Source of the DNA: Acidobacteria bacterium RIFCSPLOWO2_02_FULL_65_29
GTDB lineage: Bacteria > Acidobacteriota > Vicinamibacteria > Vicinamibacterales > CAVVIG01
DNA length: 55,093 nt
Direction: 5' to 3'
Assembly: GCA_001767435.1 (NCBI GenBank)
Contig: MEKT01000154.1
Location: 1,317-56,409 of the forward strand
Numbering within the stretch: the stretch's first letter is position 1; the number at the start of each line of letters is the position of its first letter. Under the pieces are notes generated by a model. That model did not search any database. It saw only the letters and a list, made by a program, of their open reading frames with translations, and had not been told where the DNA came from. Of the stretch, positions 37,963 to 48,910 are shown in pieces. Made by a program: the position numbers and the translations under genes.

Positions 37963-38726
37963 CGGAGCGCAAAGTCCAGCTCGGTCGTACGGCCGTCGGG
38001 CACCGTGATCGGCTGGGGCGCGGAGGCGACCCCTTCGTTCCACGCGATCGCCCTGTAATCGCCCGCCGGCACGTTGTCGATCTGGTAGCGGCCCACAGCG
38101 TCGGTGACCGTGAAGAAGGGATGGCTGAAGACCAGGATGTACGCGTTCATGTGTGAATGAATCTCGCAGAAGACCCGCACGATGCCGGGCTGGGCGAACG
38201 GCACCGACTTGGACTTCCCCGTGGCGTAGCGGCCCAGATCGAACCTGTGGGCCCTCGAGAGCGAGAACACATTGTGATAGAACGGATCGCTGTTTGGAAA
38301 GTCCACGATCGTGCCTGTCGTGACCGCGAGCAGGTGCGGCACGAACGCCTCGTTGCGCTGGTTCATCACGGCGCGGTCCGGCTCGGTCCGCTCGAACGCC
38401 CCGCGCGGCGCGGTTTCCAGATACACGACCGACTTCTGGCGGTCCGAGACATCGCGTTCGCGGGGCGTCCCGAGATCCGACACGGTCGGCCTCCGCGCGC
38501 CCGAGGCTGCGACGCGGCCGAGCGCCACGCGGCCGCGTATCCCGCCGTTGGCTGCTCCGTTGTCGTGCGCGGGCGCTCCCGCTGCCCCGGCGGACACGAC
38601 AGACACGGCCGCCACACAGGCCAAGAGCACGATCGGTTGCGGCCCTAAGATTAGTCGCGAAGATTCGCGGTGGTAACCCACGGGCTCCTTGCTCGGCGAT
38701 TTGACGCGAAGCTTCGCTACAGTCAT
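37959..38726 (-). CDS. Cupredoxin-like protein with carboxypeptidase-regulatory segment
   Basis: 255 aa if ATG 38726 is used, which overlaps the stop of the upstream gene. The first 25 residues are then encoded by a dispersed repeat (38652-38720); a start at a GTG just before ACVAAVSVVSAGAAGAPA would give a normal signal peptide without them. Candidate copper ligands lie in DPFYHNVFSLS and VFCEIHSHMNAYI (His, Cys, His, Met), followed by a small beta domain (TVTDAVGRYQIDNVPAGDYRAIAW). The pattern resembles plastocyanin-like proteins annotated with methylamine utilisation. Encoded with a barrel protein and a sensory pair, it may be part of a periplasmic copper or redox-sensing unit. Confidence 0.75.
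   Translation of the reverse strand: MTVAKLRVKSPSKEPVGYHRESSRLILGPQPIVLLACVAAVSVVSAGAAGAPAHDNGAANGGIRGRVALGRVAASGARRPTVSDLGTPRERDVSDRQKSVVYLETAPRGAFERTEPDRAVMNQRNEAFVPHLLAVTTGTIVDFPNSDPFYHNVFSLSRAHRFDLGRYATGKSKSVPFAQPGIVRVFCEIHSHMNAYILVFSHPFFTVTDAVGRYQIDNVPAGDYRAIAWNEGVASAPQPITVPDGRTTELDFALR
38652..38720. repeat. Dispersed palindromic repeat TAGTCGCGAAG...CTTCGCTAC, uninterrupted copy
   Basis: 69 bp with outer arms GCGAAG/CTTCGC and inner CCCACGGG. It is the same repeat as 48803-48910, without the 40-bp insertion. Here it lies within the predicted 5' coding end of the cupredoxin-like gene. Confidence 0.88.
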
Positions 38727-48802: not shown

Positions 48803-48910
48803 TAGTAGCGAAGATTCGCCGTTCTACCCACGGGTCCGTGACTCGGGTAGTGGTCAAGTTTGAACTTGACCACTACCGTGACTCGGCGGTTTGAGGCGAA
48901 GCTTCGCTAC
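48803..48910. repeat. Dispersed palindromic repeat TAGTAGCGAAG...CTTCGCTAC, interrupted copy
   Basis: It matches 38652-38720 along its length (GCGAAGATTCGC, CCCACGGG, CTCGGCG, GCGAAGCTTCGCTAC) except for an extra 40 bp at 48847-48886. It occupies the gap before the 74-aa gene. Confidence 0.88.
48847..48876. mobile_element. 30-bp perfect palindrome inserted with a 10-bp direct repeat
   Basis: GTAGTGGTCAAGTT-TG-AACTTGACCACTAC has 14-bp perfect arms and a 2-bp centre. CGTGACTCGG occurs on both sides (48837-48846 and 48877-48886), and only once, in a diverged form, in the uninterrupted copy at 38652-38720. This is what an insertion with target duplication would leave. Confidence 0.8.

Follow-up and report, generated by a model that had tools for sequence, protein, structure and literature searches.

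Nearly precise excision of Tn10 is usually viewed as a pairing of inverted ends combined with polymerase slippage. It uses 24-bp repeats inside the long IS10 arms and leaves ~50 bp, such that the target duplications and the outer parts of the inverted repeats stay while the interior is lost between the short repeats. In our literature search the process was only mentioned in passing, as involving internally located inverted repeat sequences (PMC5991714). We analysed 55,093 nt of contig MEKT01000154.1 of Acidobacteria bacterium RIFCSPLOWO2_02_FULL_65_29 (hereafter the window, the whole stretch), in which one copy of an interspersed repeat is interrupted by a short palindrome. Here too both target duplications and both outer ends are kept and the interior is gone, but remnants of the window type differ from Tn10 in having inverted repeats of 17-20 bp, shared words of 0-4 nt and 23-38 bp remaining. 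The most probable account, to which we give a probability of about 0.82, is that an IS1-like transposon inserted in the host repeat and then lost its interior, leaving its fused ends as a scar.

The remnant also resembles a MITE in having inverted-repeat ends, a target duplication and no coding sequence; unlike MITEs, remnants are single copy, each is different, and they have almost no interior. Near-identical copies at several targets, as expected of a MITE, were not found for the window palindrome, which within 3 mismatches is single copy in its own genome and absent from 59 relatives. The scar is a well-documented new case of an already known event, to which its recurrence across a bacterial class adds interest, and all that we found is in keeping with known transposon biology. 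Where such natural scars of fused ends retain intact target duplications, they offer a means of tallying past transposon insertions and losses in genomes that are now without the transposon, and of asking how bacteria get rid of transposons while the target stays unrestored.

The palindrome within the host repeat

The features of the locus, and the second copy of the host repeat with which it had been compared, are as follows.

38654-38720, + strand: diverged host repeat copy with no interruption, the empty site of the sequence-only reading (sequence comparison)
48805-48910, + strand: host repeat copy of 106 bp, interrupted by the remnant, with ends GTAGCGAAGATTCGCC...GGCGAAGCTTCGCTAC common to 21 other copies in the genome
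48838-48845, no strand: left 8-bp target-site duplication GTGACTCG (sequence and 29-site boundary test)
48846-48877, no strand: 32-bp palindrome, in which the left and right terminal inverted repeats of an IS1-like transposon are probably joined (the intact element L053:2388-6294 and other elements have matching ends)
48846-48864, + strand: left-end segment, matching the G004 element (GGTAGTGGTCAAGTTTGAA, 19 nt; junction analysis)
48863-48877, - strand: segment matching the right end (15 nt), overlapping the left segment by 2 nt (AA; junction analysis)
48878-48885, no strand: right 8-bp target-site duplication GTGACTCG (sequence and boundary test)

The palindrome, GGTAGTGGTCAAGTT-TG-AACTTGACCACTACC, is perfect over its 32 bp, and base composition predicts ~0.004 perfect inverted repeats in the window with an arm of at least 14 and a loop of no more than 4. 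Allowing two mismatches, the 14-bp arm has no occurrence in the window beyond the two in the palindrome itself, with 0.06 expected from shuffles. The sequence-only reading had placed a 30-bp palindrome with a 10-bp flanking duplication here; both features are present, while their sizes are 32 and 8 bp, the palindrome running on by one base at either end (G and C) and the outer bases of the supposed 10-mer being element bases that match the flank by chance. This boundary was examined at 29 palindrome-bounded sites of 22-38 bp from the window genome, its relatives and other genomes: a perfect 8-bp duplication lies at the GG...CC boundary in 11 of them, and none appears at the same 29 sites when the boundaries are shifted by 1-3 bases.

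The host repeat belongs to an interspersed family of ~67 bp with ends GTAGCGAAGATTCGCC and GGCGAAGCTTCGCTAC, 22 copies of which were recovered from loci of the window genome and compared. All but one measure 57-68 bp and hold at most one copy of a CGTTACTCGG-like word; only the window copy has 106 bp and two words, and removal of 32 + 8 bases from it gives an ordinary 66-bp repeat. In the other copies the word is mostly CGTTACTCGG or CGTCACTCGG, while both words of the window copy are CGTGACTCGG, an identity that fits what is required of a true target duplication. The interruption that had been deduced from a filled and an empty site is borne out by the 21 uninterrupted copies, although the proposed empty site, 38652-38720, is a diverged paralogue at a different locus. 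A tandem 10-mer with no palindrome, which the same reading had named as counter-evidence, occurs in none of the copies compared. The family (here at 48805-48910 and 38654-38720 of the window and at L005-L034) has inverted ends, often with a GCGGCCGC-rich hairpin (CAAAGCGGCCGCCTA) in front of it, and it looks REP-like or MITE-like.

IS1-like transposons with the same ends

In G004, from the same family, two arms of this kind face each other 3.9 kb apart and delimit a 3907-bp element (L053:2388-6294) with exactly matching ends, so the 14-bp arm is indeed the terminal inverted repeat of a transposon. The element stops at a contig end, but its last 141 bases are shared with a second contig that extends into the flank, and through this overlap the target duplication CACGTTTC is found on both sides. 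Its products include a 300-aa IS1-like transposase and DNA-methylase-related proteins, among others. When the surroundings of transposase genes were searched for inverted ends flanked by an 8-bp duplication, 21 further elements came to light, which brings the intact elements with ends of this type to 22; they are 1.9-8.8 kb long, come from related genomes of the class and all have a perfect 8-bp duplication. All 22 carry a homologous transposase gene between the ends, several gene copies being broken. The ends are mostly of the GGTAGTGGTCAAGTTTGAA and GGTAGTGGGTCAGTTTGAA types, with related variants such as GGTAGTGTCTCAGTTTGA. These matches between the arms and the ends of intact elements, together with the 8-bp duplications, support the earlier suggestion of a larger transposon with fused ends and a deleted interior, and the 32 bp are better read as the leftover of a larger insertion than as a remarkably small inserted element. 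Duplications do recur, a point that the sequence-only reading had proposed to check, although at a perfect 8 bp and not at about 10 (22 intact elements and 11 remnants).

Of the 193 genomes of the class, 43 have the transposase at E 1e-20 or better. Twelve transposases out of 12 matched PF03400 (DDE_Tnp_IS1), and the same 12 matched NF033558, the member scored in detail falling below the NCBIfam IS1 cut-off (66.7 vs 100 bits). In an alignment of the 12, identity to the first is 54-67%, and acidic positions are conserved in CDEIW, TTDGH and SYVERQN, which would fit a DDE enzyme with these as its putative catalytic residues. The parent transposon shares with the IS1 family its PF03400 transposase, GGT... 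ends and an 8-bp duplication, perfect in the 22 elements and within the 8-9 bp of that family. It differs in its cargo, its size of 1.9-8.8 kb, the sub-cut-off score of the one member and its transposase, a single frame of ~276-318 aa in place of the two-frame insA/insB' layout with programmed frameshift; because of this single frame we call the family IS1-like and not IS1. An IS1595 identity had been suspected from the GGNNNTG start and the 8-bp duplication, but PF12762 gave one sub-threshold match in the genome, and the intact elements have the IS1-like transposase.

In the window genome itself only a decayed transposase fragment was found, 61% identical over 41 aa (C180:2462-2584); an arm with one mismatch lies ~0.9 kb away, at C180:3501.

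The cargo of the IS1-like transposons (L053, L111, L124, L126, L135) comprises DNA methylases, some with Mrr-like or HNH nuclease domains, an AbiEii-like AAA ATPase and a Fic protein, and such transposons may be carriers of defence-type genes. They also occur in sequences classed as viral, 55 viral contigs (L189-L243) encoding relatives of the transposase; despite these, no remnant of the searched pattern was found in the viral collection.

Recurrence of fused-end remnants

Eleven fused-end remnants, 23-38 bp long and each with a perfect 8-bp duplication, were found, one of them in another acidobacterial assembly (L062) and the rest in seven genomes of the class; by chance, ~0.001 perfect duplications would be expected. 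All 11 differ from one another in sequence and target, as expected from independent deletions. When the GTDB genome collection was scanned for exact matches to GGTAGTGGTCAA-N(2-20)-TTGACCACTACC, five places were returned: the three in Acidobacteria each have a perfect 8-bp duplication, and the two in unrelated bacteria have none. Within the class, a scan for the 8-mers GGTAGTGG and CCACTACC at a spacing of 6-36 bp recovered ten perfect-duplication remnants, distributed over seven genomes.

When scans of equal width were compared, the 22-52 bp range had ten perfect-duplication remnants and the 53-83 bp range one (binomial p ~0.006). The host genome of this single longer case also has MITEs of the family; another case in the longer range has a duplication that matches at 7 of 8 bases. 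The sharper contrast between 22-38 and 39-83 bp (p 2e-5) used a limit picked after the data had been seen, and the equal-width comparison of 10 with 1 is the fairer one. The transposase is found in 5 of the 7 remnant genomes compared with 38 of the 186 others (Fisher p 0.007, uncorrected for phylogeny).

The same ends also bound MITEs of 144-251 bp (L168-L172; G037, G047, G002), only one of the five read having a perfect 8-bp duplication, and G037 holds 21 forward and 19 reverse matches to the ends. Many runs of GGTAGTGG-like short repeats in G148 (L163-L167, L180-L188) mimic transposon ends and lack an 8-bp duplication.

Origin of the scars

We propose that an IS1-like transposon of the GGTAGTGG family entered a copy of the host repeat, duplicating the 8-bp target GTGACTCG, and that its interior, probably 2-5 kb with the transposase and cargo, was later deleted. 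Both deletion endpoints would lie inside the 17-20-bp terminal inverted repeats, so that what remains, ~17-19 nt from the left end joined to 13-15 nt from the right, would form a palindrome with an intact target duplication on either side. Most likely, the inverted ends paired and brought short words together, which allowed polymerase slippage or short-homology deletion. We infer this mechanism, the size of the lost element and the order of events, slippage being the best fit. The preference for endpoints within the terminal repeats points to deletion guided by the inverted repeats, as opposed to random internal loss.

Could the palindrome instead have moved at its present size, as an extreme MITE on which the IS1-like transposase acted in trans? 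Longer MITEs do exist in the family, multi-copy at ~183-228 bp in G037 and of 144 and 251 bp in G002 and G047. However, no sequence is common to any two remnants and none is multi-copy, genomes with two or more having different ones, and a transposase is unlikely to synapse two ends only 2 bp apart; because no copies are shared, we consider a 32-bp mobile element of this kind improbable. We find it similarly hard to credit that the transposase itself made the scars, by aberrant excision or end-joining in place of DNA polymerase slippage. The endpoints do lie inside the presumed transposase-binding ends and the transposase is enriched in remnant genomes, but such enrichment is predicted by any model, since a remnant needs a former transposon, and cleavage at the outer ends would not spare both of these and both target duplications; with all of them intact, the transposon's own transposase did not excise it at the outer ends.

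Least probable is a hairpin that arose within the repeat, by chance or with a function such as that of a terminator. Palindromes of the same sequence, without a duplication, do occur in Thalassotalea and Bacteriovorax, where they are followed by T-rich DNA in a terminator-like arrangement, but the exact match to transposon ends, the perfect 8-bp duplication and the absence of the palindrome from 21 other repeat copies all speak against such an origin in the window. A circle junction was rejected as well, the ends facing the wrong way (GG outermost).

Beyond the loss of a transposon interior at this one locus, it is possible, though less likely than not, that IS1-like cargo transposons in this class are regularly removed by a specific, hairpin-guided deletion within their terminal repeats, with the 23-38-bp palindromic scars recording past loss. 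A similarity of the retained lengths on the two sides, significant at first, was not significant after scar-derived reference ends had been removed. Microhomology at the junctions is weak, with a possible 2 nt (AA) in the window copy and 0-4 nt or a short filler in the others; leaving aside C194, described next, these others overlap by 0-2 nt or have the filler. A second palindrome of the window genome (C194) shares TTGA at its junction and is flanked by a duplication of only 6 bp.
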